Source: a virus. Taken from it: a stretch of 64,000 nucleotides of DNA. The notes beneath the pieces are model-generated. The model was not told the origin of the DNA. It made no database searches and was given only the letters and a program-made list of their open reading frames with translations. The position numbers and the translations under genes were made by a program. Positions 14,241-44,497 of the stretch are shown piece by piece (positions within the stretch are counted from its first letter, which is position 1; each line of letters starts with the position of its first letter). The stretch spans positions 1 to 64,000 of the IMG/VR virus record IMGVR_UViG_3300036790_000811; one strand, written 5' to 3'.

Positions 14241-15920
14241 ATGAACAAGCGGATGCCGAAGCCTCCCCGGCCGTGGCATTCGATGGCCCGTCCTAAGCAG
14301 CTTCCCCCGGATCATTCTCGGCATCACCTCGCTGACAAAAACGGCTACCGCTGCCAGTGGAAAGAAAAGGACGGCACCCCCCACGTCTGCACGGGAGATA
14401 AAGACTGGTTCATCTGGCTCTTTCTCGCCGGCCGCATGGTCGGAAAAACGATGACCGGCTCGAACTGGATCCTGGAGGAAGCCCTCAAGTACCCCGGAAC
14501 CCGGTGGGCGGTCGTGGCACCCACGTTCCAGCAGGTTCAGGAAGTCTGCTTTACCGGGGACTCGGGAATCATCGCGCAGGCGCTGCCCGGGGAGATCTCG
14601 GAGTACAACAAGAACGCGATGATGATCGTGCTCCAGAACGGCAGCGAGATCAAGGGGTTCTCGGCCGAGGCTCCGGAACGTATTCGTGGTTACAACTTGT
14701 CCGGCGCGTGGCTGGACGAGGTGGGCTCGTACCGGAATCGCGTCATCTGGGATGAGGCGCTCGGCCCGGCTCTCCGCAAAGGAAATCCCAGGGTTGTCGT
14801 CACGACCACCCCAAGTGGCAGCCCTCTCCTGAGGGAGTGGGTGGAGCGGTTCACCAATGCCGCAAAGAAGGGTGAGCCGTGCGACATCCACCTCACCCCT
14901 GCGCGCTTCAGTGAGAACGACACCATCCCGAAGAAGCAGCTCGAACGTCTTGAGGAGCAGTACGGCGGTACCCGTATCGGGCGCCAGGAACTCGAAGGCG
15001 AGATGCTGGAAGACTTCGAGGGAGCCCTCTGGAAGCGGAGCTTCATCGAGGACCACCGGGTAAACGAGTCGGATTACTTTGACAAGGCCGGCCGCATCAG
15101 GACCGAGCTGTTCGGCCGGATCGTGGTGGCAGTGGACCCGTCGATGACATCCGGCGAGACGTCGGACGAGTCCGGGATCGTCGTCGCGGGAGAAGGCGCC
15201 GACGGCGACGGCTACCTGATCGCTGACTGGAGCGTGCAGGGTACCCCCGAGGAGACCATGCGCCGAGCCGTGGCCGCCTACTACGAGTACCACGCTGACT
15301 GCGTGGTCATGGAGACCAACCAGGGCGGTGACTACCTGGTCAAGGCCCTGCGCGCCGCCGACCCGCATGTCCCTCCCCGGCTGGTTCACGCCTCCAAGGG
15401 GAAGATGATCCGTGCCCAGCCTATTTCCATGCTCGCCGAGCAGGGCAGGCTGCACCATATCGGGTTTTTCCCGAAACTAGAGGACCAGCTTTGTACCCTG
15501 GTTCCCGACGCGTCGCGGAATCAGCACGACGACCGGGCTGACGCGTTTGTCTGGGCGATGACCGAGCTGCGGGGAATTACCGACGGCTCCTACCTGGCCA
15601 CCTATGGCCACAAGTACTGCAAGTCCTGCGGTAAGACCATCCGGACGTCCGCCCGGCTGTGCCCCGGTTGCGGCAAGATGCAGGACAGCAGTGACGACCA
15701 GACCCCCACTGCCGGCAAGTGGGCCGGCGCCTACCTGAACCACTGCAAGAAATGCGGCGAGAATTACCCGCAGCGCTTCAAGAAGTGCCCCACTTGCAAC
15801 CCGACTCCGGAAACCTACATGGCCGCCGTCCAGAAGGCGTCGGGACAAGGGGGAGGCTGGCTATCCTATTCCGGGAGAGACTGGTTCAAGGGAGCAGGCC
15901 TGTTATCAGATGCGAGGTAG
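14241..15920 (+). CDS. terL: terminase large subunit with zinc-ribbon tail
   Basis: DNA-packaging motor. Walker A AGRMVGKT (residues 63-70), Walker B WLDEVG (158-162), coupling motif TTTPSG (188-193); nuclease acids at VAVDP (D299), METN (E358) and DDRADAF (D434). An unusual C-terminal extension has two zinc ribbons, CKSC...CPGC (460-477) and CKKC...CPTC (502-519). The ATG at 14241 is the first canonical start. However, the same frame is open and coding-like for 29 codons upstream (DFPVGWDLPEGFEDFPADVQ), to a GTA at 14154 that stands five bases after GAGGTG, so translation may begin there. Confidence 0.9.
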   Translation: MNKRMPKPPRPWHSMARPKQLPPDHSRHHLADKNGYRCQWKEKDGTPHVCTGDKDWFIWLFLAGRMVGKTMTGSNWILEEALKYPGTRWAVVAPTFQQVQEVCFTGDSGIIAQALPGEISEYNKNAMMIVLQNGSEIKGFSAEAPERIRGYNLSGAWLDEVGSYRNRVIWDEALGPALRKGNPRVVVTTTPSGSPLLREWVERFTNAAKKGEPCDIHLTPARFSENDTIPKKQLERLEEQYGGTRIGRQELEGEMLEDFEGALWKRSFIEDHRVNESDYFDKAGRIRTELFGRIVVAVDPSMTSGETSDESGIVVAGEGADGDGYLIADWSVQGTPEETMRRAVAAYYEYHADCVVMETNQGGDYLVKALRAADPHVPPRLVHASKGKMIRAQPISMLAEQGRLHHIGFFPKLEDQLCTLVPDASRNQHDDRADAFVWAMTELRGITDGSYLATYGHKYCKSCGKTIRTSARLCPGCGKMQDSSDDQTPTAGKWAGAYLNHCKKCGENYPQRFKKCPTCNPTPETYMAAVQKASGQGGGWLSYSGRDWFKGAGLLSDAR

Positions 15921-18802: not shown

Positions 18803-18866
18803 GAAATAACAGGGTGTTACGAAAGAAGCCTGACAATTCACGTAGCTTACGAAAAGGAGCGCCGGA

Positions 18867-21800
18867 ATGGCTGACAAGCGCCGGGTTGCCGCCGCACTGA
18901 AGTCAATTCCCGGGGCTCGCCCCACGATGGCTCCTCAGTCGTCGGGGTACGGTTCCGCGTCGCCTATCGCGGCGATGATGAACCAGCAGAACCAGTTCGC
19001 CAACTCCTATGGTCCTTTCCTGCCCCGGCCGAGCCAGGTGTTCACCGACGGCGCTTTCGGTCCCATGTCGCCCATTCAGCCGGTGCCGGTGGACAATCCC
19101 CCGCCGGGAGGGGAGTTCGCCGACCCCAGAAGCTGGGAATACCGGGTCGGCTGGAACCTTCCGACTCCTCCGGGGACTGAGGGTCTCAAGCTGGCAAGCT
19201 TCCAGCAGCTGAAGACCCTCAGTGAGAAGTACTGTTTGGCACCAGAAACCCGGGTACTCTGCTCGGACTTCACGTGGCGTCAGCTATCGGACATCAGCGT
19301 GGGTGATGAGCTCATCGCGTTTGACGAAGATCCCCCCGCTCGTGGACTGCACCGTAAGATGCGGTTTGCGACAGTGACGGCGTATGACCGGATTACACGT
19401 CCCTGCTACCGGGTGACACTGACAGACGGTCGTACGGTTGTCGCATCCGCCGAGCATCTATGGCTTGCCGGACGTGACAAGGCGGATGGTTCCTGCGCCT
19501 GCGAAATCTGCGGAAAGCAGTTCGGCCGCGCTCAGGGGCTGGGTGTGCACCGCAGGCAGGTTCACGATATCGAGGGTCAGTGGAAGCACAACAACTTCGG
19601 AGCATGGACGGTGACGGCGCAGCTGCGCCCGGGAAGCACTATCCGTGATCTCGGCTCCCCCTGGGAAGAGGATTTTTCCCGGGAAGCCGGCTATCTCTCT
19701 GGCGTTTACGACGGGGAAGCTTCTCTTAATATCGCGAACGGTAATCATAAAGGCTGGGGAATTGGATTCCCGCAGAATGCTGGTCCGGTTTTCGATGAAG
19801 TAGAAGCCATTCTCAAGCGCAAGGAATATGGTTTTCGGATTCACGGTCCAGGTATTAATGACTCCTGTAAGCATATTACGATCAGCGGGATGCGTGATTG
19901 TTTCCGCTTCATGGGAGAAATGCGCCCTCTTCGTCTTCTAGGAAATGCCAGGAAGTGGATAGAGGGAAATAGCCCTTCCCGTGCTGGATGTGCGACCGTG
20001 GAATCCGTAGAATTCCTGGGCGAGCGAGAGGTAATCGCTGCCGGCACGAGCACGAGCACGCTTATTGCGGAAGGGCTGTTTTCGCACAACAGCGTCGCCC
20101 GCGCCTGCATCGACCTGCGCCAGCAGGAGATCCGTGGTCTCGAATGGGAGATCACGATGACCAAGGAAGCGGCGAAGGCATACCAGAACTCGCACGCCAG
20201 GATGAAGGACTTCGGGGTCCGCGCGGCGGAGGCCACGAAGTTCTTCAAGCGTCCCGATCCGGATTATTGGACGTTCAGCTCGTTCATGAACGCGATGCTG
20301 GAAGAGATCTTCGTCTACGACGCCCTGAGTGTCATCTTCCGTCCCAAGTACGGTGCCAAGTTCGGGCGCGGCGGTCGCGGGCTCCTCGGCAGCGACCTGG
20401 ACTCGCTCCGTCTCATTTCGGGACCGACGATCCGTCCCCTGGTGGACCTGCACGGCAACATCCCCAAGGCTCCGGGGACTCCGGCCTACCAGCAGTACCT
20501 GTACGGCGTCCCCCGCTCGGACTACATGTCCATCCTTCGGGGTGACGACATTGCGGGAACCGTCCTGGCGGGGTCGGAATACAACGAGTTCACCGCCGAC
20601 TTGATGCTGTACGCCCCCTACTGGCCGCGCCGGGAGACCCCCTACGGCTTCCCGCCGATTGAGCGCGCCCTCTTGCCGGTGATCGCCGGGCTTCAGAAGC
20701 AGGAATACCAGCTTGACTTCTTCTCCGAGGGTTCGGTTCCGGCGGTCTATATCTCCCCGGGTGACCCCAATATCACCCCGACGCAGATCAAGGAGCTGCA
20801 AGACGCCCTGAACGGGATCGCAGGGGATCCGGCGTACCACATGAAGGTCGTCGTCCTCCCTCCTGGCTCTAAGGTCGAGCCGCAGAAGCCCGTGGATCTC
20901 GCGGACTCCTTCGACCTGCTCGTTCAGACTCAGGTGTGCATGGCATTCGATTGCCAGCCGGCAGAGCTGGGCATTCTGCCGAACGTGGGCAGCAACCAGG
21001 GCGGTGGCGGAGCCTCGGCCGGTGCCATCCGCCTCGGCATGCAAGAAGCCCGGGACATCAAGTCCCGCAAGTCCACGAAGCCGACCCTGCACTTCATCGC
21101 CAGCATCTTCAACTATATCCTTCAGGATGTCTGCGGCCAGAAGGACATGAAGTTCACCTTCGAGGGCCTCGCCGACGACGAGGACCAGCAGGCGATTACC
21201 GACCTCGGCGTCCAGCAGGTCCAGAACGGTATCGCGTCTATCGATGAGGTCCGGGACCGCCTTGATCTTCCCCCATGGGGCCTGTCCGAGACGTCGGAGC
21301 CGGTGGTCTTCACCGCCCAGGGGCCGATCCCGTTCTCCATGGCCCCGCAGCTCATCGCGAACATGCAGGGACAGAACGGAGGGTCGTCGTCATCCGGGAA
21401 CTCGAACAATGGTACCCAGTCCAGCAATTCCGGGCAGCGCACTTCCTCCTCGCGGACGAGGACGAATCAGCCCTCGGTGCGAGCCGGAGGGCAGACCAAG
21501 CCCAACGGCAGTCATCAGGCGCCGATCGCCCCGCATCGCGAGTCCCTGACGCCCGCACATAGTGCCGCCAGCGGGGCCGTGCAGAGCCCTACTCCCCGAA
21601 CTGGCGGCACCCCTTCGCGATCAAGTGTGGCCGGATCGAGGAAGAAGGCGGTGGAGGCTGAGTTCGGTGCCCTGAAGCGCCACCTCCGCAAGGGCCGGCT
21701 GATTACCACCTGGGAAACGCGGCACATTCCCGAGCGGTCCCTGTCCATGATTTCGGAGGACATCGCCAACGGCCTGCTGATTGACTCCGCCGTGGACCGG

Positions 21801-24014
21801 GCCACCGATTTCGTTCTGAAGGACGAAGAGGACATCTTTGAGCCGATCGTGGCCAAGGCACAGCAGTGGCCGGGCTGGGAGCGCGATCTCGGGCTCGTCG
21901 GTGCCTATAAGCAGCAGATTGAGGGAGCCTTTGCCGTTGCCCAGGCCAAGGGTGAGCAACTGCGCCACAAGGCGGCCAACGGGGGCATGTTCGTCTCCAG
22001 CTCTGCCCTGCGGGGACTCATTTCGGATGAGATGCATGACACTTTCCTGGGGGTTCTCCAGCCTCTGTGGAGCGAAGCGTGGCACCTCGGTTACGAGGCG
22101 GCCAAATCTCTGGTCACGGGCCAGGACGCGGACTTCGCCGTCAAGCACGAGAGCGGTGCGCTCGACGGGTTTATCGACACCCAGGGCGCTCACTGGGCGG
22201 AACAGATCGCCCGGACCGGCCTGAAGAACGAGAACGCCCGGACTGAGGCTATCGCCCGGACCGAAATAGCCCGCGCCGTGAACGCGGCGGCCATCCAGGC
22301 GTACCGGGACTACGGTGTCACCCACAAGCAGCTCATGCTTGCTCCTGATGACGCCTGCGACATCTGCAAGGATGCCGAGGATGAGGGTGTCATCCCGCTG
22401 GACGCGATCTTTCCTCAGGGAGGTCTTGGCGGTCCACTTCATGTTTCGTGCCGATGTGTCCCTGTCGCCGCCGGGATCGAGTTGGAGCCTCCGCAGGGAC
22501 ATCTCGGCAAGAGCCTTCTCGGGGATCTGGCTGCATCCGGTCCCTTTCCTTCCAGTGGGCCCGATCACCCCTACAGGCAGGACGGGCAGTCCGGAGCTGG
22601 CAACTGCGAGTGCGGTCATGCCGCAAGTGCACACGAAGATAAGTCCCGGCTTGCTTGGCTGCTGATGCGCGCCCGGGATGATGACGGCAAGTACCGCTTC
22701 CTGCTCCAGCAGCGGGACGACGGCACCTGGGGTATGCCCGGCGGCACGACTCACGTCGGGGAAGATCCGTGGGACGCCGCTATCCGCGAGTGTACGGAAG
22801 AAGTCGGGGACCTTCCGGGCATGACCGTGGCCGCCACGTTCCACCACGAGGAAGACAATGGCGCTCGCGCCTACGTCTGGATGGTGGACGTTCCCTATTT
22901 CCAGCCGAAGATGAACGGCTCGACTCCCGAGGAGACCCAGGGTGTCGCCTGGTTCCGGCGCAAGGAGATCGACAAGCTTAACCTGACCGGAAAGTTCCGC
23001 GAAGACTGGGAGCAGACGCCCGATATCCGGGAGTACGCCACCAAGAACCAGAACATGGTGAACGAATCCGGTGAGCGACTGGCGATCGTGGACTCCCAGG
23101 CACCGCTGCACGCTTCGGGAGCGCGGTGGCCCTACCCGAACCGGTCGCCGAACGGCTTTCCGATCGAGGACCCGCACTACAACCAGGCACCGGGCGAAAT
23201 GGGAGCCAGCGAGCCTCCCCGCAAGGACCTGGACAGCGATACCCCGACCCGGCTGTACCCCAGGGGTACCGAAGACGAGAAATTCCCGCCCAGGAGGGGA
23301 AAGGGCAAGCCCGCCAAGAAGTTCCCGGAGCAGGGCGACGAACAGTGGCCCGAGACCGAGAACGGCGGAGCGCAATCATCGTCCGCTCAGGTAGGGGGCA
23401 ATACGGGAGTCCCGAAAGCGGGTCCCGTGCCGGCGGTAGGGAGCGTCCCGGCGAAGACGCCGACTCCGATGGCGCCCCGGAGTGTTCCTCCGCAGGTTTA
23501 CGATCCCGCTGACGCGGTGGCGACGGAAGAAGACGGGGAAATCGCGTACTACCCCCAGCCGAAGCCGAAGAAGGGAAAGGGTGCCGCGAATTACACGGAC
23601 CCTTCTCCGGTGGACGCCGAGCACGTATACGTTCAGCTCGCCAGGAATTTCCCACCAAAAGCTATTGCCTGGGTTCAGCGAGCTCGATGGATCGGCCCCA
23701 TCTGGATTCCGTGGGATCGGATTGATACTGACGACCAGGATGAATGGGCCGCCTCCCACCAGCCTGAGCACGTGAAAGATTTCATGCGCCAGATCAAGGA
23801 TCATGACGGCCGGATCGTCCCGTCGGTCCTGGTTCAGGAGCCAGACGGCGGAAAGGCGTTCATCGTAGACGGTCATCACCGTGCTCTCGCCCGGGAAAAG
23901 CTGGAGCAGCCGGTGCTCGCTTATCTCGGGACGATTAACCCGGATGATCGGCAGGCGGCACTGGAAACCCATAGCGCCCAGGTTCATCACGGTGCCGACC
24001 ATGACAATAACTGA
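18867..24014 (+). CDS. portal-MuF-Nudix-ParB-like fusion protein interrupted by an intein (1715 aa)
   Basis: Residues 1-122 and 409-830: phage portal (ring at the head vertex through which DNA passes). Residues 123-408: intein. Residues about 925-1200: MuF/SPP1 gp7-like head morphogenesis domain (EAIARTEIARAVNAAAIQAY, then CDICKDAEDEG and HVSCRC). Residues about 1255-1385: Nudix hydrolase with box GTTHVGE...REC-EEVG. Residues about 1590-1700: ParB/sulfiredoxin-like domain with VDGHHRALA. Linkers are Ser/Pro/Gly-rich. After splicing about 1,429 residues remain. AAAAGGAG before the ATG is a good ribosome site. The Nudix and ParB-like parts may be enzymatic cargo carried in the virion; that is inference. 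Confidence 0.88.
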   Translation: MADKRRVAAALKSIPGARPTMAPQSSGYGSASPIAAMMNQQNQFANSYGPFLPRPSQVFTDGAFGPMSPIQPVPVDNPPPGGEFADPRSWEYRVGWNLPTPPGTEGLKLASFQQLKTLSEKYCLAPETRVLCSDFTWRQLSDISVGDELIAFDEDPPARGLHRKMRFATVTAYDRITRPCYRVTLTDGRTVVASAEHLWLAGRDKADGSCACEICGKQFGRAQGLGVHRRQVHDIEGQWKHNNFGAWTVTAQLRPGSTIRDLGSPWEEDFSREAGYLSGVYDGEASLNIANGNHKGWGIGFPQNAGPVFDEVEAILKRKEYGFRIHGPGINDSCKHITISGMRDCFRFMGEMRPLRLLGNARKWIEGNSPSRAGCATVESVEFLGEREVIAAGTSTSTLIAEGLFSHNSVARACIDLRQQEIRGLEWEITMTKEAAKAYQNSHARMKDFGVRAAEATKFFKRPDPDYWTFSSFMNAMLEEIFVYDALSVIFRPKYGAKFGRGGRGLLGSDLDSLRLISGPTIRPLVDLHGNIPKAPGTPAYQQYLYGVPRSDYMSILRGDDIAGTVLAGSEYNEFTADLMLYAPYWPRRETPYGFPPIERALLPVIAGLQKQEYQLDFFSEGSVPAVYISPGDPNITPTQIKELQDALNGIAGDPAYHMKVVVLPPGSKVEPQKPVDLADSFDLLVQTQVCMAFDCQPAELGILPNVGSNQGGGGASAGAIRLGMQEARDIKSRKSTKPTLHFIASIFNYILQDVCGQKDMKFTFEGLADDEDQQAITDLGVQQVQNGIASIDEVRDRLDLPPWGLSETSEPVVFTAQGPIPFSMAPQLIANMQGQNGGSSSSGNSNNGTQSSNSGQRTSSSRTRTNQPSVRAGGQTKPNGSHQAPIAPHRESLTPAHSAASGAVQSPTPRTGGTPSRSSVAGSRKKAVEAEFGALKRHLRKGRLITTWETRHIPERSLSMISEDIANGLLIDSAVDRATDFVLKDEEDIFEPIVAKAQQWPGWERDLGLVGAYKQQIEGAFAVAQAKGEQLRHKAANGGMFVSSSALRGLISDEMHDTFLGVLQPLWSEAWHLGYEAAKSLVTGQDADFAVKHESGALDGFIDTQGAHWAEQIARTGLKNENARTEAIARTEIARAVNAAAIQAYRDYGVTHKQLMLAPDDACDICKDAEDEGVIPLDAIFPQGGLGGPLHVSCRCVPVAAGIELEPPQGHLGKSLLGDLAASGPFPSSGPDHPYRQDGQSGAGNCECGHAASAHEDKSRLAWLLMRARDDDGKYRFLLQQRDDGTWGMPGGTTHVGEDPWDAAIRECTEEVGDLPGMTVAATFHHEEDNGARAYVWMVDVPYFQPKMNGSTPEETQGVAWFRRKEIDKLNLTGKFREDWEQTPDIREYATKNQNMVNESGERLAIVDSQAPLHASGARWPYPNRSPNGFPIEDPHYNQAPGEMGASEPPRKDLDSDTPTRLYPRGTEDEKFPPRRGKGKPAKKFPEQGDEQWPETENGGAQSSSAQVGGNTGVPKAGPVPAVGSVPAKTPTPMAPRSVPPQVYDPADAVATEEDGEIAYYPQPKPKKGKGAANYTDPSPVDAEHVYVQLARNFPPKAIAWVQRARWIGPIWIPWDRIDTDDQDEWAASHQPEHVKDFMRQIKDHDGRIVPSVLVQEPDGGKAFIVDGHHRALAREKLEQPVLAYLGTINPDDRQAALETHSAQVHHGADHDNN
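19233..20090 (+). mobile_element. intein in the portal gene with C2H2 finger and endonuclease-like domain (286 aa)
   Basis: Starts at Cys123 (CLAPETRVLCSD) and ends GLFSHN before Ser409, the classic C...HN|S splice borders. An HINT-type block is seen at VGDELIAFDE and at the C-terminal segment EVIAAGTSTSTLIAEGLFSH. Between them are a classical C2H2 zinc finger (C-x2-C-x12-H-x4-H, residues 212-233) and a single degenerate LAGLIDADG-like motif (GYLSGVYDGEASL, 275-287). The flanks KY and SVARACIDL join into normal portal sequence after splicing. Confidence 0.88.
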
Positions 24015-25191: not shown

Positions 25192-27975
25192 GTGGCTGCC
25201 ACTCTGACTAATGACAACGAGATCCTCTACAGCAGCTTCCCGATCGAGAAGACCGAGACGACTGAAGACGGGGACCTGATTGTCTACGGCAAGGCGTCAG
25301 ACGGCGGCCTGGACTCCGACAGTCAGATCGTAGATCCCAAGTGGATGGCGAAGGCGGCTCAGGAATGGCTGAGTACGGGCGGCAATCTTCGGGTGCAGCA
25401 CTCGGCGCAGCGCGATCCTGCCGGGGTTGGCCTGGAAGCCACAACCGACGACTCAGGGAGTACGTGGGTTAAGGGGCTTGTTGTCGAGCCGGTTGCCCAG
25501 AAGCTTGTCAGCAAGGGCGCACTTCGTGCTTACTCGGTGGGTATTGCCCGTCCGACTATTACGCGAGACGCTTCTGCCCCGGGAGGCCGGATCATCGGCG
25601 GCGAGCTCGTAGAAATTTCGCTTGTAGACAGGCCCGCTAACAAGCGATGCGGAATCCAGCTCGTGAAGTCCGCGAGTGACGGTACTCCTGAATATGTCGG
25701 TGAGGTCTTCGGCTCCGAGGAGGACATCTCCAAGGCCCTGGGCGCGGATACCGTCAAGAACTACGACGCTGACGGGGAAGTCCCCGAGTCTTCCATTCCG
25801 CTGGCACAGGACACGGTGTTCTCGTTCACGCCGAACGACCTGGCGAAGATCGTCAAGTCTAAGGTCATCGAGGAACACTACGCCGAGCTGGCGATGAAGG
25901 CCATCGGTGATGCGGAATACGAAATTCTCGGTAAGGATCACCGCGAGTTCACCACTGATCGCCGCAAGGATCTTGCCGGACAGGGCAATGCCCTTCCGGA
26001 TGGCAGTTACCCCATTCCCGATAAGGACGCCCTTCGTCGTGCCGCCATCCTGGCGCGCTCCGGGCACGGAAACGCAGCGGCAGCGCGCCGCCTGATTGCC
26101 CGTAGGGCGAAGGAGCTTGGTGTGGCAAATCCGCTCGACGCGGACGACAAGGTCAAGAACGAGGATGTGACGACCGCCCCCGTGGCTGAGCCGGAGGTTC
26201 CCAAGGAGGCGGACGCGGACGTCACGAAGGACCCCGCCGACGGTGACGGTCCCGGCCCGGTGGACAAGAAGAAGCCGAAGAAGGGCAAGAACGGGAAGCC
26301 CCTTCCGCCCTGGCTCCAGGACAACAAGGGCAACTCCAAGTCCGGTGACTCGCCGTCGAACAAGCAGGACAACTCCGGTGACGGGGATGACGCTGACGAC
26401 GATGACGACGACAAGAAAGACATGGACTGCAAGCTCCAGCACACTCACACCGAGAAGTGCCACCCGAGCGGCACTCCGCAGAGCACCTCTGGCGCCAAGG
26501 ACTCTCCCCCGATGAAGGAGATCCCGGACCCGGGCGCGGCGGAGTACACCCCCATGCCTGCCGGGCGGGCGACAGAACACCACAAGGGCGCCAACCCGGA
26601 GCAGGTCGCACTCATGCGCTTCAAGAGCGTGGGCATGGATCCCGACCTCGGCCGTCTTCACGACCTGACCTGTGCCGCGTTCCACCCGGAGGACGTCGCC
26701 AAGTATCACCCGTTCGCGGATTTCGCTTCCACGATCGACACCGGGGTCTGGCAGCGCAAGGCCGTAGACGCGGCCTGCGGCCCGCTGGACCAGGCGATGG
26801 CGATGACCCAGGTGTGGCAGGCGGCGGAGACGCTCAAGGGCGCCGACCTGGCTGACCTCAACGACTACCGGCTGGCGCTGCACAAGGCGTTCCGGGACGC
26901 GAATCCCGGGCCGTCCAGCTATCCGTCGCCGGGCTCCATTTCGCCGGACCGTTACAACCGGCCGCTGATCACGGACGGGCACGAGACGTCGTCGCCCGGA
27001 CATGACGGACCGAACTCCTCTCCCGACGTCGCTTCGCACGCGCCGTCCGGCGGGGACCATTTCGACCGCCCCCCGCTGGGGGAGGGTCATCAGTCGCCGT
27101 CCCCCTCGTTCATGAAGGGCGGCTTCCCGTACCCGACTGAGCAGGGCGTGCCGACCAAGGTCCCCTTCGCCCACGCCGAGAAGGAGCGCGCCCGTCAGGC
27201 TCTGAGCCTGATGCACGATCATCTCGCCCGGATGTTCCCGAGTGCCTGCCCCATGCATGAGCAGGACCCTCACCGCGTTGACCAGCGCCCGGCGGTGCCG
27301 GAGCCGGTCGGCAAGACGGTAGAGCCGGAGGCTCAGGCCGAAGCGGTGAGCAAGTCCGAGACTCCCGGGAACGTCTTCAAGGCGGAAGTCGGCGACGACG
27401 AGGTCATCAAGGGCATTCGCAAGAAGCTGGCCAAGAAGGTTCTGAGCGGCAAGCTGACCGTGGACGAGGCGCGCGCCAAGCTGGGCCGCGCTCGTGCCCA
27501 GAAGTCTGACGAGCCCGACGAGAACGTCGTCAAGGGCCTGTTCGAGACCGGGAAGATCACCCGGGAAGAGGCGCTCAAGCAGCTGGGACTCCAGGAGCCG
27601 GCGGCTCCCGCTCCCGCTGTCAAGGCAGCCGTCCCCGACGTCCCGACTCTTACCCCGGACATCATCAAGTCCGCGATTACGGAGGCTATCGCCCCGATCG
27701 CGCAGGAGCTGGCCAAGGCCAGGGAAACGATCGATGAGCAGCAGAAGGCTCTCGACGTCCTGGCTGACCAGCCCGACCCGAGCACCGCCGCGTTTGCTGG
27801 AATCGCGGTGAATAAGTCGAGTCGCCCGGCGGGCGTCCCGACCCAGGCTGAGATCGCGGAGCGAACTCAGACGATGGTTATGCGGCAGCTCGACAGGGCT
27901 TACCGCACCAGCGAGAACCCCGCAGAGCGGGAAGCCGCCTTCCAGGCGCTTAGCAAGTACCGCGCATTTGAGTAA
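25192..27975 (+). CDS. prohead protease fused to a long scaffold-like region (927 aa)
   Basis: GTG 25192 after GGAGGCGT. Residues 1-160: HK97-type prohead serine protease with His70 (LRVQHSA), Ser115 (AYSVGIARP) and the ELVEISLVDRPAN strand. Residues 190-900: mostly disordered and charged, with an ALRRAAILARSGHGNAAAAR helix, a poly-Asp block near 400, and His/Cys-rich spots (HTHTEKCHPS, CPMHEQDPH). The C-terminal 100 residues are coiled coil. The unusual length suggests that protease and scaffolding are one chain, cut during capsid maturation. Directly upstream of the major capsid gene. Confidence 0.85.
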   Translation: MAATLTNDNEILYSSFPIEKTETTEDGDLIVYGKASDGGLDSDSQIVDPKWMAKAAQEWLSTGGNLRVQHSAQRDPAGVGLEATTDDSGSTWVKGLVVEPVAQKLVSKGALRAYSVGIARPTITRDASAPGGRIIGGELVEISLVDRPANKRCGIQLVKSASDGTPEYVGEVFGSEEDISKALGADTVKNYDADGEVPESSIPLAQDTVFSFTPNDLAKIVKSKVIEEHYAELAMKAIGDAEYEILGKDHREFTTDRRKDLAGQGNALPDGSYPIPDKDALRRAAILARSGHGNAAAARRLIARRAKELGVANPLDADDKVKNEDVTTAPVAEPEVPKEADADVTKDPADGDGPGPVDKKKPKKGKNGKPLPPWLQDNKGNSKSGDSPSNKQDNSGDGDDADDDDDDKKDMDCKLQHTHTEKCHPSGTPQSTSGAKDSPPMKEIPDPGAAEYTPMPAGRATEHHKGANPEQVALMRFKSVGMDPDLGRLHDLTCAAFHPEDVAKYHPFADFASTIDTGVWQRKAVDAACGPLDQAMAMTQVWQAAETLKGADLADLNDYRLALHKAFRDANPGPSSYPSPGSISPDRYNRPLITDGHETSSPGHDGPNSSPDVASHAPSGGDHFDRPPLGEGHQSPSPSFMKGGFPYPTEQGVPTKVPFAHAEKERARQALSLMHDHLARMFPSACPMHEQDPHRVDQRPAVPEPVGKTVEPEAQAEAVSKSETPGNVFKAEVGDDEVIKGIRKKLAKKVLSGKLTVDEARAKLGRARAQKSDEPDENVVKGLFETGKITREEALKQLGLQEPAAPAPAVKAAVPDVPTLTPDIIKSAITEAIAPIAQELAKARETIDEQQKALDVLADQPDPSTAAFAGIAVNKSSRPAGVPTQAEIAERTQTMVMRQLDRAYRTSENPAEREAAFQALSKYRAFE

Positions 27976-30014: not shown

Positions 30015-31118
30015 ATGGCGAAGCATCTGACAGAAGATCAGAAGAAGTACGTCCTTCAGCGTTACAACGAGGGCACCTCACTCCGCGCGATCGGCAGGGA
30101 GATTGAGCGTCCTGACATCACCGTGCGCCGGACCCTGGAATCCATGGGCGTGGAGTTCGGTGTTGCCCGGACCACAAACAAGCGGTCCTCGCCCGAGACT
30201 GAGGCTCTCGTTGTTCGGCTTTACGACGAGGGCACGACTTGGGCGCTCATCATGGAGCAGGCGTACATCACCGACGTCACTGTCTCCAAGATCCTCAAGC
30301 GTAACGGTCGTGATCTGACTCGCCAGGGAACGACTGAGGGCGAAGAGGAGATCATCAGTGCTCTCTATGCGGCAGGTCATAGCGCCCGCCATATCGGGGA
30401 GAAGCTCGGGCACAGCAAGACCACGATCGTCCGTAGTATCGTTACCAATGGTGGCAAGATCCGGATCGCCGGATGCGAGTACCCGGACTATTTTGACGTG
30501 GTGGACACTCCCGAGAAGGCGTACTGGCTCGGGTTTATCGCTGCCGATGGCTGCATGATAACCACGGCAGGACATCCCGAAGGGGACCATCTCGCGATTC
30601 AGCTAGCCATCGTTGATCGCGATCATCTGGCTAAGCTGAAGAAGGTTCTCGGAGCCCAGGCGGCGATTCTCACGGGCGCCAACACGGGCTTCGGGAATGG
30701 CACTCAGCGTCGCGCAAGTCTCACGGTCGGCTCTCGGAGACTTGCCATGGCTCTCATTGCTCTCGGCATCACGCCCCGCAAGAGTGCTACCGCCGAACCT
30801 TGGAACGGTCCTGCTGACCTCATGCCGCACTACTGGCGAGGCATGGTTGACGGCGACGGCTCCATTGCCCGTAAGGGCGACGGACTCTGGACCCTCTTCC
30901 TCTGTGGCTCCGAGGCATGTGTTCGCGCGTTTACCGCATGGGCGCACGACGTCTGCGGGACGAACGCGACGCCCTACTTCAAGTCCGGCTGCTGGTACGT
31001 CTCCATCGCCGGGCGATACCAAGTGCGCAAGCTCGTTGCCGCACTGTACGAAAACGTTCCCGTCTCGCTTGACCGCAAGCAGGAGCGGGCTAATGCCGTA
31101 CTTGCGGCAGGAAACTAG
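30015..31118 (+). CDS. LAGLIDADG homing endonuclease with N-terminal HTH repeats (367 aa)
   Basis: The first 130 residues hold repeated resolvase-like HTH units (YNEGTSLRAIGREIERPDIT; LYDEGTTWALIMEQ; LYAAGHSARHIGEKLGHSKT). The two LAGLIDADG motifs WLGFIAADGC (about 172) and WRGMVDGDGS (about 276) carry the catalytic aspartates. It cuts long DNA sites to copy itself. Inserted between capsid and decoration genes, in the sense direction, with its own promoter and no ribosome site. Confidence 0.85.
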   Translation: MAKHLTEDQKKYVLQRYNEGTSLRAIGREIERPDITVRRTLESMGVEFGVARTTNKRSSPETEALVVRLYDEGTTWALIMEQAYITDVTVSKILKRNGRDLTRQGTTEGEEEIISALYAAGHSARHIGEKLGHSKTTIVRSIVTNGGKIRIAGCEYPDYFDVVDTPEKAYWLGFIAADGCMITTAGHPEGDHLAIQLAIVDRDHLAKLKKVLGAQAAILTGANTGFGNGTQRRASLTVGSRRLAMALIALGITPRKSATAEPWNGPADLMPHYWRGMVDGDGSIARKGDGLWTLFLCGSEACVRAFTAWAHDVCGTNATPYFKSGCWYVSIAGRYQVRKLVAALYENVPVSLDRKQERANAVLAAGN

Positions 31119-32100: not shown

Positions 32101-33105
32101 GTGAAGATCTTCGTGACCGGCATCGCCGGTTTTCTCGGGGCGCACATTGCTCGTGAGGCGATAGACCGGGGCTGGGAAGTCACCGGGATCGACAGCATGC
32201 TCTCGGCGGTTGACGATACGCTTGAAGGTGCCGAATGGAAGAGGACGGACTGTCGAGATGCCGACAGTTATGCGGATCTGATTCACGATGTAGATGTCGT
32301 TTATCACTGCGCAGCAGCTCCCTATGAGGGACTTTCGGTCTTTTCTCCCCAGATCGTTTTCGAGAACACCCTGCTTTCTACCGTTGGTCTTCTCCGGGCG
32401 TCGGTGAATGCTGGAGCGCGCCGATTCATCTTCGCTTCCTCCATGTCCCGTTACGGTCATGGAGCACCCCCTTTCACTGAAGAGACGTCGTCGGTCCCCG
32501 TTGATCCATACGGAGTGGCGAAGGTCTCGGCCGAGAACGCAGTGAAGAACATCTGTGACCTGCACGGCCTGGAATGGGTCATCGCAGTTCCGCATAACGT
32601 CTACGGCCCCGGCCAGCGATACTGGGATCCGTACCGCAATGTTCCGGCGATTATGGTCAATCGGGTGTTGCAGGGCAAGCCGCCGGTCGTCTACGGAAAC
32701 GGTTCACAACGCCGGTCACTGTCCTATGTGGCCGATGTCAGTGTCCCGATGATCGCCATGGCGGATCACCCTCACGCTCCCGGCGAGATCTTCAACGTGG
32801 GACCCGGCGGGGCGGGTGTTACGATCGCAGAGCTGGCGGAGAAGATCATCCGGCTGGCGAACGTGGACTTCGATCCCGAGTACTATCCTGATCGTCCGAG
32901 TGAGGTGCGCTACGCCTTCTGTTCAGACGAGAAGACCCGGAACGTTCTCGGCTATGAGTGCCAGTGGACCCTGGAGGCGGGACTGGAGAAGCTTATCGCC
33001 TATATCGCCGAAAAGGGTCCCCGGCCGTTTGACTACCATCTCCCGCTGGAGATCACCAATACTCCGCTTCAGACGCCGCGTACGTGGACCGAGAGACTGA
33101 TGTAG
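32101..33105 (+). CDS. NAD-dependent sugar epimerase/dehydratase (SDR family, 334 aa)
   Basis: GTG 32101 behind AAAGGG. Extended SDR fold: TGIAGFLG nucleotide-binding motif (residues 6-13), FASSM (111-115) and catalytic Y137-x3-K141 (YGVAK), and a C-terminal substrate domain. Acts on nucleotide sugars in the cytoplasm, most like UDP-/GDP-sugar 4-epimerases and reductases. One-base overlap with the next gene (TAGTG) shows a joint operon. Exact substrate cannot be read. Confidence 0.85.
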   Translation: MKIFVTGIAGFLGAHIAREAIDRGWEVTGIDSMLSAVDDTLEGAEWKRTDCRDADSYADLIHDVDVVYHCAAAPYEGLSVFSPQIVFENTLLSTVGLLRASVNAGARRFIFASSMSRYGHGAPPFTEETSSVPVDPYGVAKVSAENAVKNICDLHGLEWVIAVPHNVYGPGQRYWDPYRNVPAIMVNRVLQGKPPVVYGNGSQRRSLSYVADVSVPMIAMADHPHAPGEIFNVGPGGAGVTIAELAEKIIRLANVDFDPEYYPDRPSEVRYAFCSDEKTRNVLGYECQWTLEAGLEKLIAYIAEKGPRPFDYHLPLEITNTPLQTPRTWTERLM

Positions 33106-34196
33106 TGGAACGTATCCGTTACGGCGGGATCATCGCGGGAGGCGAGGAAATTGCTGCGGTTACCGAGGTTCTCAAAGGCCAGGAGTGGGCTTCCGGAGCC
33201 AAGGTCGCAGAATTCGAGGAAAAGGCCGCCGGGTGGCAGGGATGCCGTCGCGCACTTTTTGTCAATTCCGGGTCCTCGGCGCTACTGCTTGCGATGTCTG
33301 TTCTTCCGGAACATTCCCGGATCGCGATGCCAGCACTTCAGTTTCCCACGCTTTACAGTGCCGCAGTCCGGATCGGGCATATCCCGGTGCTCGTGGACAT
33401 TGACGACACCCTGAACATGGATCCGGCCCGATTGGACGAGGTGACCGGAAGCGTTGATGCCGTGGCTTTCGTTCACATGGCTGGCAATCCGGCGAACATC
33501 AGGGAAGTACGCGATATCTGCGCTCGGCACGGTCTCCTTCTGATTGAGGACGTTTGCGAGGCTCTCGGGGCTTCCGATGATGGCATCAGGGCAGGAAAAG
33601 TCGGACTCGTCTCCGCTGTCTCTACCCATGGGGCTCATCACATCTGCACCGGGGAGGGCGGTCTCGCTTTCACCGACGATGAAGCCGCTTACCAGAAGAT
33701 GCGGCGCATTCGCGACTGGGGTCGCGCTTACGGAACTTTCGAGATTCCGGGATACTACGAGCATTACATCTTCTCGGAGCTAGGCTTCAATCTCCACGCA
33801 AGTGACATTCAGGCCGCATTGGGGATCGTCCAGCTCGATCGTGCCGGAGGATTCATCGAGCGGCGCAGGGAAAACTGGGATCACCTGCGGCACGAGATTC
33901 GGGAAATGCCCATAGAACTTCCCCGGACAGGTACCGATCCGTCATGGTTTGCCTTTCCGATGCTGGTTCCGGAAAGACGCGCGGAGTTTATCTCCCACCT
34001 GGAAAACTCGGATATCGAATGCCGGACTATTGTCGCGGGAAACATGCCCCGACAACCAATTTGCAATGACAATCCGGAGCGCTTTCCATTTGCGGACAAG
34101 TGGTTCCATCGCGGATTGTGGATCAGTGTTCATCCCCGGATTACACCCGAGCAGATAGCGTACGCCGGAGAGAAGGTCAGGGAGTTCTGGGCGTGA
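33105..34196 (+). CDS. RfbH/ColD-like PLP-dependent sugar 3-dehydrase (363 aa)
   Basis: GTG 33105 (TAGTG overlap) is the start. DegT/DnrJ/EryC1 fold, but the PLP-binding lysine position reads STHGAHHICTGEGG: His replaces Lys, the hallmark of E1/RfbH and ColD sugar 3-dehydrases. RDWGR, NLHASDIQAALG and VAGNMPRQP also match that family. E1/RfbH place a [2Fe-2S] cluster through Cys residues right after RDWGR. Here that segment (AYGTFEIPGYY) has none, so it is closer to ColD in that respect. Predicted reaction: removal of the 3-OH from a 4-keto-sugar nucleotide. Confidence 0.85.
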   Translation: MERIRYGGIIAGGEEIAAVTEVLKGQEWASGAKVAEFEEKAAGWQGCRRALFVNSGSSALLLAMSVLPEHSRIAMPALQFPTLYSAAVRIGHIPVLVDIDDTLNMDPARLDEVTGSVDAVAFVHMAGNPANIREVRDICARHGLLLIEDVCEALGASDDGIRAGKVGLVSAVSTHGAHHICTGEGGLAFTDDEAAYQKMRRIRDWGRAYGTFEIPGYYEHYIFSELGFNLHASDIQAALGIVQLDRAGGFIERRRENWDHLRHEIREMPIELPRTGTDPSWFAFPMLVPERRAEFISHLENSDIECRTIVAGNMPRQPICNDNPERFPFADKWFHRGLWISVHPRITPEQIAYAGEKVREFWA

Positions 34197-34858
34197 CACG
34201 CGTTTCGGTTCTACTGACTACCTATAATCGCCCCGCAATGCTCGAAGAGGCTGTTCAGTCGGTACTGACACAGACATACACCGACTATGAACTGTTCATC
34301 CTTGATGACAATTCTTCCCTTTCTGAACAGCATGCCCTGATCGCTGGGTACTGGAACGATCCCCGTGTGCGCGTCTACAAGGACAACGTTTCCCGGGAGC
34401 GACGACGTGACCGTGTTCGCTATGCGACCATGATTAACGTGGGTCTCCAGCTCGCACGAGGGGAGTACATCACTTACCTGTGCGATGACGACCTGTTCTT
34501 GCCCGACCGGCTGGAGACGATGACTGCCCGGCTAGACCAGGGCGACTGTCAGGTGGTCTACGGGGAACAGCAGATGGAGAATTACCGGGGCGCAGATCGC
34601 GGTATCCGTTTCCAAGCTGCTGGGGTTCTGGAAAACGCCTACGGCGTGGACCACTCCTCGGTCATGCACACCAAGGGTGCCTCCGATGCCGTCGGAGGCT
34701 GGGACGACAATCCCGGTCGCTGGCATGACGCCGATGCTGCATTCTGGGCACGTCTGACAAGTGCGGGATATCATTTTCATCCAGTAAACAAGGTTACCGA
34801 TATCCATCGGTTCCATGATGCCTCAGTGCAATCATCGGGATACGGCAGGGATTTTTAA
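34193..34858 (+). CDS. family 2 glycosyltransferase (221 aa)
   Basis: GTG 34193 overlaps the upstream stop (GTGA). MTRVSVLLTTYNRPAMLEEA is the standard GT2 start, LDDNSS the first acidic motif, and CDDDLFLPDRLE the DxD motif. Ends within the GT-A domain. It would transfer the sugar made by the two previous enzymes. Acceptor unknown (virion protein, DNA or host wall). Confidence 0.85.
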   Translation: MTRVSVLLTTYNRPAMLEEAVQSVLTQTYTDYELFILDDNSSLSEQHALIAGYWNDPRVRVYKDNVSRERRRDRVRYATMINVGLQLARGEYITYLCDDDLFLPDRLETMTARLDQGDCQVVYGEQQMENYRGADRGIRFQAAGVLENAYGVDHSSVMHTKGASDAVGGWDDNPGRWHDADAAFWARLTSAGYHFHPVNKVTDIHRFHDASVQSSGYGRDF

Positions 34859-43357: not shown

Positions 43358-44497
43358 ATGAGCCGTGTTATGTGGCACAGCGTCAGTCCCTGGGCCCCGA
43401 GTGGGTACGGAGTTCAGACCCAGATCTGGACCCGGCGCCTCAAGGAACTGGGTCACGAGGTCATCATCAGCTCTTTCTGGGGAATTCAGGGCGGTGCTAC
43501 CCAATGGGAAGGCATGATGGTCCTCCCCGGCTTCGGGGGTGCCTACTGCACGCCGTCGCTGCATCAGCATGCCAAGGCCTTCAAGCCCGACCTCGTCATC
43601 ACCCTCGGGGACATCTGGGTGATGGACGCCAACCTCCTCCGGGAGATCCCGGCGGCTCACTGGCTCCCCTCGGACTCGCGCCCCATGTCCTCGGCCGACC
43701 GGGGTGTCGCGGAAGCCTCCGGCGATGACCTGATCGCGATGAGCAAGTTCGGCCACCAGCGGTTCCTGGACGCGGGCTTCACGAACGCCCTCTACGTCCC
43801 CCACGGGATCGACACTGAGGTCTTCAAGCCGCTGGACAACGTGAAGGAACTGCGCGAAGCCTGCGGCCTGACGGAGGATCACTTCGTCATCGGCATCAAC
43901 CAGGCCAACAATGACGCCATCCGCAAGGCCCTGCCGGAGCAGATGTTGGCGTTCGCCCGGTTCGCGAAGAACCATGACGACGCCATGCTCACCCTGCACA
44001 CCGGGGTTAAGCAGGAAGGCGGCCAAGACCTGGAGGCCGTGGCCGAGAATCTCGGCATCCTGGACCGGATCCGGGTGGTGGACCAGTACCGCTACACCAG
44101 CGGGATGATCACCCAGTCTGACCTGAACGAGTGGTACAACGTCCTGGACGTGCTGTCCCAGGCGGTCTACGCCGAAGGCTTCGGCCTCCCGGTCGTGGAG
44201 GCGCAGGCGACCGGTACCCCGGTGATCACCACGAACGCCTCCGCCATGGAGGAGCTGAACCCCTACGGCATTACCGTGGACGGGGAGCCCTTCTGGAACG
44301 GCGTCCACAAGGCATGGTGGATACGTCCCAGCGTCAGGGAGATCGCGGATTCCTACGAGCTCGCCTACGAGAAGCGCAAGGACGTCAAGCCTGATCTCTA
44401 CCGGGACTTCGCCGGGACCTATGACTTCCGCAAGGTCAGTCCGGAATTCATGGAGCCGGCGGTTGAAGAGTTGCTTCGCCGCATGAAGGACCGCTGA
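43358..44497 (+). CDS. GT-B family 4 glycosyltransferase (379 aa)
   Basis: MSRVMWHSVSPWAPSGYGVQ start and the C-terminal EGFGLPVVEAQATGTPVITT block, with the E-x7-E donor-binding motif, are those of GT4 enzymes. ATG after AGTGAGCCGCGA. It sits between tail chaperone and a tail completion gene. It may modify the tail or host surface glycans together with the sugar island at 32101-36361. Confidence 0.8.
   Translation: MSRVMWHSVSPWAPSGYGVQTQIWTRRLKELGHEVIISSFWGIQGGATQWEGMMVLPGFGGAYCTPSLHQHAKAFKPDLVITLGDIWVMDANLLREIPAAHWLPSDSRPMSSADRGVAEASGDDLIAMSKFGHQRFLDAGFTNALYVPHGIDTEVFKPLDNVKELREACGLTEDHFVIGINQANNDAIRKALPEQMLAFARFAKNHDDAMLTLHTGVKQEGGQDLEAVAENLGILDRIRVVDQYRYTSGMITQSDLNEWYNVLDVLSQAVYAEGFGLPVVEAQATGTPVITTNASAMEELNPYGITVDGEPFWNGVHKAWWIRPSVREIADSYELAYEKRKDVKPDLYRDFAGTYDFRKVSPEFMEPAVEELLRRMKDR

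Follow-up and report, generated by a model that had tools for sequence, protein, structure and literature searches.

What do enzyme-like domains do on the portal protein of a phage head? In phages generally, the portal ring consists of twelve copies, and MuF-type tails lie inside the head. The question is raised by an open reading frame (ORF) in a window of 64,000 nucleotides, which represents positions 1 to 64,000 of the 76,489-base contig of virus record IMGVR_UViG_3300036790_000811. An original prediction, made from the letters alone, had read this ORF as a fusion of portal, MuF, Nudix hydrolase and ParB/sulfiredoxin-like domains. The four domains are real, on the evidence of one frame of 1715 residues, Pfam and PHROGs matches and a predicted ParB fold, but a fifth part had been missed, an intein within the portal at residues 123-408.

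A portal chain with additional domains

The ORF is a single uninterrupted frame with a ribosome site (AAAGGAG, 18853-18859) directly 5' of its ATG, and no separate start splits the chain in the window, in agreement with the original prediction (Table 1). The ORF is preceded by a terminase gene and followed by genes of a likely prohead protease-scaffold protein and a likely major head protein; by these neighbours, the region is a tailed-phage head module.

Table 1. Features of the portal ORF and its neighbours in the window
Feature	Position	Strand	Basis or remark
Whole ORF, 1715 aa: portal N, intein, portal, MuF, Nudix, linker, ParB/Srx-like domain	18867..24014	+	
Portal N-terminal part (aa 1-122), N-extein	18867..19232	+	alignable across relatives
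Predicted intein (aa 123-408), class-1 type; Cys1 ... His-Asn, Ser+1	19233..20090	+	empty site gap-free in 47 relatives
Intein block B, VVASAEH	19437..19457	+	His invariant among relatives
C2H2 zinc finger within intein (aa 211-233)	19497..19565	+	between splicing block and LAGLIDADG motif
LAGLIDADG-like motif of homing endonuclease, REAGYLSGVYDGEASL	19680..19727	+	
Portal domain proper (aa 409-840), C-extein	20091..21386	+	Pfam PF04860; 58-79% identity with close relatives
Ser/Gly-rich linker, then the beginning of the MuF helical region (aa 841-1000)	21387..21866	+	sequence
MuF core (aa 1109-1198) with CxxC and HxxCRC	22191..22460	+	Pfam, PHROGs
Nudix hydrolase domain (aa about 1262-1371)	22650..22979	+	Pfam, profile and fold matches
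Nudix box, GTTHVGEDPWDAAIRECTEEVGD	22743..22811	+	catalytic residues intact
Pro/Gly/Ser-rich linker, Nudix to ParB	23052..23624	+	lowest conservation of all parts
Predicted ParB/sulfiredoxin-fold domain (aa 1587-1715)	23625..24011	+	motifs WAASHQP, VDGHHR
Context: terminase large subunit	14241..15920	+	upstream of portal ORF
Context: likely prohead protease-scaffold gene, candidate processor of the chain	25192..27975	+	position, phrog_617, weak Peptidase_S78 match under cut-off

The gene of the likely major head protein is directly followed by a free-standing gene with a helix-turn-helix and a LAGLIDADG-like endonuclease (30015-31118), and genes for a nucleotide-sugar epimerase, a DegT/DnrJ aminotransferase and glycosyltransferases are found within the structural region (32101-34858 and 43358-44497), where they may serve the glycosylation of virion parts.

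The Pfam family Phage_portal (PF04860) matches residues 410-800 above its cut-off despite the intein (E 1e-11, 45.0 bits against 39.1). Phage_Mu_F (PF04233, residues 1109-1198) scores just below its own (E 1e-5, 26.6 bits against 29.6), a cut-off that is passed by the distant homologues L178, L193 and L208. In PHROGs, one match to the portal family phrog_2662 runs across portal and MuF (residues 404-1197, E 3e-47), and MuF-type head proteins are matched at E about 1e-10. The NUDIX family (PF00293) is matched over residues 1262-1370 with E 9e-13 and 48.8 bits, the cut-off being 21.1. The Nudix box had been called intact, and rightly so: the G, E, RE, EE and G residues of the consensus GX5EX7REUXEEXGU are all present and invariant across the aligned family, with C and D at the two U positions. 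By sequence profile the closest protein is RenU of M. smegmatis, which is also among the best matches by fold, as are RppH, NrtR with ADP-ribose and Ap4A hydrolase; Dcp2 is a further solved structure close to the domain, and sequence signatures gave no clear substrate class.

The C-terminal domain is weak by sequence, being matched as an isolated domain by phrog_1033 (E 3e-6, a family without curated cut-off) and by no Pfam family over cut-off, the best of which is ParBc_2 with E 0.0096. Structure prediction, proposed earlier as a check, yielded an AF2 model with a pLDDT of 87, and nearly all of its top 50 Foldseek matches, of high probability but with E-values only of 0.007 and above, belong to the ParB/sulfiredoxin superfamily (KorB, sulfiredoxin, PadC, Noc, SbnI, SerK and ParB). 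By its modelled fold, the domain is a member of this superfamily that stands outside any curated family. ParB-superfamily members are nucleotide and DNA binders. In the DGHHR motif, which we take to occupy the place of the phosphate-binding G-x-x-R motif of the superfamily, D, G, the second H and R are invariant together with flanking residues, and the catalytic Cys of sulfiredoxin is absent from the domain. Its search against 50,697 phage records returned nothing significant, the lone matches being no better than E 0.2. The domains of the chain thus stand above background, portal and Nudix by their scores, and ParB by its modelled fold and its conservation among relatives.

An intein inside the portal

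Between Tyr122 and Ser409, the portal is interrupted by 286 residues, beginning with CLAPETRVL and ending with FSHN, which by sequence are a class-1 intein, presumably active in splicing, with a homing endonuclease. Its profile matches solved inteins; residues C1, H75, H285 and N286 are invariant in three relatives, with Ser at position +1, and its GC3 is 0.58 as against 0.66-0.85 for the remainder of the gene. In all 47 of the 47 relatives that cover the insertion site, the portal is uninterrupted there, for example with EKY joined directly to SVARACIDL. Full-length matches with 30-35% identity are found in a terminase-like gene of mycobacteriophages (Pham3880) and in portals of Gordonia phages.

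Portal inteins of mycobacteriophages have been described previously (PMC5050341), and those of the Gordonia phage Anamika and its relatives, as well as the Pham3880 intein of cluster C1 mycobacteriophages, are of the same family as the intein of the window. The latter differs from the Gordonia portal inteins in that it sits at another site of the portal and contains a C2H2 zinc finger, a feature absent from all 43 of the related inteins checked. The finger may sharpen homing, and an intein with a zinc finger is a separate small novelty. Insertions with intein-like ends were also observed at other sites of the portal (L040, L169 with apparently two, L174, L180 and L183) and in MuF (L044 and L192). 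Those of L040, L044 and L192 are backed by Hint or intein-splicing matches, some of them below the cut-off, and those of L169, L174, L180 and L183 were recognized by inspection of the sequence.

Relatives and the order of cargo

Used as a single query, the whole chain retrieved no relatives; 75 loci were retrieved with the portal alignment as query, and the census of architectures was built with an additional search for the ParB domain. Nearly all close relatives, whose portals are 58-79% identical, consist of portal, MuF, Nudix, linker and ParB. This order occurs in about 38 distinct chains of environmental (IMG/VR) phages, comprising 25 that are complete, 11 that are cut by contig ends, and variants. 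Other orders include portal-ParB-Nudix (6), portal-ParB-MuF (3), portal-Nudix-ParB, portal-ParB and MuF-ParB-Nudix, as well as portal-2H-ParB and portal-MuF-ParB-2H; more than 10 cargo orders are found across related chains. Sometimes Nudix gives way to a 2H phosphoesterase, a domain that scores above its Pfam cut-off in L033 and L044. A chain of 2019 residues (L178:1681-7737) has a zeta-toxin domain (Pfam E 8e-23) C-terminal to portal, MuF, Nudix and ParB, and ART-like matches on the ParB-bearing chains L201 and L203 are weak and under the Pfam cut-off. One distant portal-Nudix-MuF relative resides in a metagenome-assembled genome of Acidimicrobiales; in 396 genomes of its phylum, a search run without a positive control gave no ParB match.

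In addition, a short domain with four Cys residues (CGNCVMF...CDLV...C), which has no Pfam match and is possibly HiPIP-like, was noticed on portal chains at the C-terminus (L020 and L027) or in the middle (L071).

Selection and module exchange

Portal, MuF, Nudix and ParB are all under purifying selection. In close pairs their dN/dS is 0.02-0.33, with ParB down to 0.03, and the linker is mostly the loosest part; these values come from close pairs only, as all-pairs estimates were discarded on account of dS saturation or bias among these GC-rich sequences.

ParB and Nudix recombine independently of the portal. The Spearman correlation of identities is 0.17 between portal and ParB as against 0.67 between portal and Nudix, and in L030 and L031 portals that are 90% identical carry ParB domains of 53% identity. 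In the AU test, a sister relationship is rejected for the ParB domains of these two (p 2e-5) and for the Nudix domains of L033 and L034 (p 1e-3), and is not rejected for a third clade, L018 with L021 and L024 in ParB (p 0.097); because the pairs were chosen after their identities had been seen, the p values are somewhat optimistic.

Proposed role of the cargo

On balance, it seems probable that the portal doubles as a polyvalent, head-borne carrier of enzymes, with a cargo that removes nucleotide signals or nucleic acid. For such a carrier, we infer splicing activity, copy number, location, delivery and substrates as follows. After translation, the intein would excise itself and its flanks would be joined, giving a predicted chain of 1429 residues (156 kDa), twelve of which would form the portal ring, their MuF-Nudix-ParB tails (about 95 kDa per copy) extending into the head interior. 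The predicted substrate of the Nudix domain is a nucleotide-diphosphate compound, either of the ADP-ribose type, NAD-derived or a dinucleotide; the ParB/Srx domain would be nucleotide-binding and might also cleave or retain nucleic acid. Either the maturation protease would release the tails, which would then pass into the host along with the DNA, or the tails would act from the head. As portal subunits stay in the head, delivery of the tails needs cleavage; no cleavage site freeing them was located in the chain, and the enzyme proposed for the cut is the likely prohead protease. Against a carrier role also stand related portal chains with neither Nudix nor ParB, which show the cargo to be dispensable for portal function as such. 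An early role of the tails in counter-defence or host takeover is favoured. The replacement of Nudix by 2H and the exchange of cargo are consistent with the published model of packaged and injected enzymes. That the C-terminal parts may be cargo of the head, as originally suggested, fits the conserved active-site residues, purifying selection, exchange, the 2H swap and precedent; their delivery is what we infer.

A role confined to the head, in its assembly or in packaging, would account for the same domains without delivery, with Nudix clearing pyrophosphate-type compounds and ParB/Srx binding nucleotide and DNA. Their place on the portal chain, beside DNA entry, speaks for this role, as do the nucleotide and DNA binding of the ParB superfamily, including the best fold matches KorB, PadC and sulfiredoxin, and the distribution of the ParB module, which is mostly on portal or MuF chains and even on an SPP1-type portal (its portal match being just under cut-off). 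However, both domains are missing from many portals of the same family. Moreover, the swap of Nudix for 2H and the presence of zeta-toxin or ART-like domains suit exchangeable effectors better, and exchange that is independent of the portal argues against a tight fit, making an assembly role rather unlikely.

A cut or separately translated chain, whose Nudix and ParB parts would act late in the infected cell and not from the virion, is improbable. In a few relatives, ParB (L028, L040 and L175) or ParB-Nudix (L144) is indeed a downstream ORF of its own, and the linkers are long and least conserved, but in the great majority of chains the domains remain fused, and the chain of the window is unsplit. 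That the extra domains are functionless passengers or an artefact of assembly is scarcely credible, because the architecture recurs in many separate metagenome assemblies; chance or misassembly was rejected given the same chain in many independent contigs, and decayed passengers given low dN/dS and intact active-site residues.

If the portal is a carrier of enzymes, a more specific and decidedly tentative proposal can be made for this large, as yet uncultured phage group. Its portal ring could be an interchangeable magazine, loaded with ParB/Srx and either Nudix or 2H, which are swapped by recombination and released at infection, where alarm signals would be destroyed stepwise; jointly with this proposal, and just as tentatively, the portal of the group could be an intein hot spot. 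The pairing of Nudix with 2H phosphoesterases, both proposed to target nucleotide immune signals, offers a concrete set of domains for testing against nucleotide-signalling defences.

Comparison with known systems

A Nudix domain on portal or MuF is already known, and the novelty ascribed to the chain by the original prediction is reduced to that extent. In the Arthrobacter phages Sonali and Mufasa8, portal, Nudix and MuF are likewise on one chain beside the terminase, but Nudix precedes MuF, there is neither a ParB domain nor an intein, and the Nudix is of a different type, nearest to MutT and CTP pyrophosphohydrolase. Because of this difference in type and position, there seem to have been two or more separate recruitments of Nudix to chains of portal and MuF. 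Fusions of Nudix to MuF, portal and protease (capsid peptidase) were reported in 2022, and Nudix and 2H domains on MuF or portal were proposed to be packaged and injected, with 2H acting against nucleotide immune signals (PMC9503650). There too Nudix is tied to a head protein; it is called T4 NudE-like, and ParB is unmentioned in the text. In Klebsiella phage Chronis, gp4 (L004:3599-5212) bears an N-terminal Nudix on another head-module protein, adjoining likely portal and MuF-like genes.

Multi-domain chains linked to the head are also represented by polyvalent proteins and MuF-fused effectors, with cargo including ParB-like, 2H and ART domains (PMC5512222, PMC3482391). The ParB-like domains of polyvalent proteins have been proposed to be NTP-regulated nucleases, and the DdrB-like type is distinguished by a lineage-specific Asp/Asn after strand 2 and an extra helix with Tyr (PMC5512222). 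In contrast, the ParB-like domain of the window shares the portal's own chain with Nudix. In a search that covered part of the journals, no paper describing a portal-MuF-Nudix-ParB chain came to light. What is new is therefore the ParB-like module on portal chains, in shuffled order, unmatched in the phage records and the literature searched, and with it head-carried effectors would no longer be rare cases but a portal-bound system that is widespread, conserved and subject to recombination.
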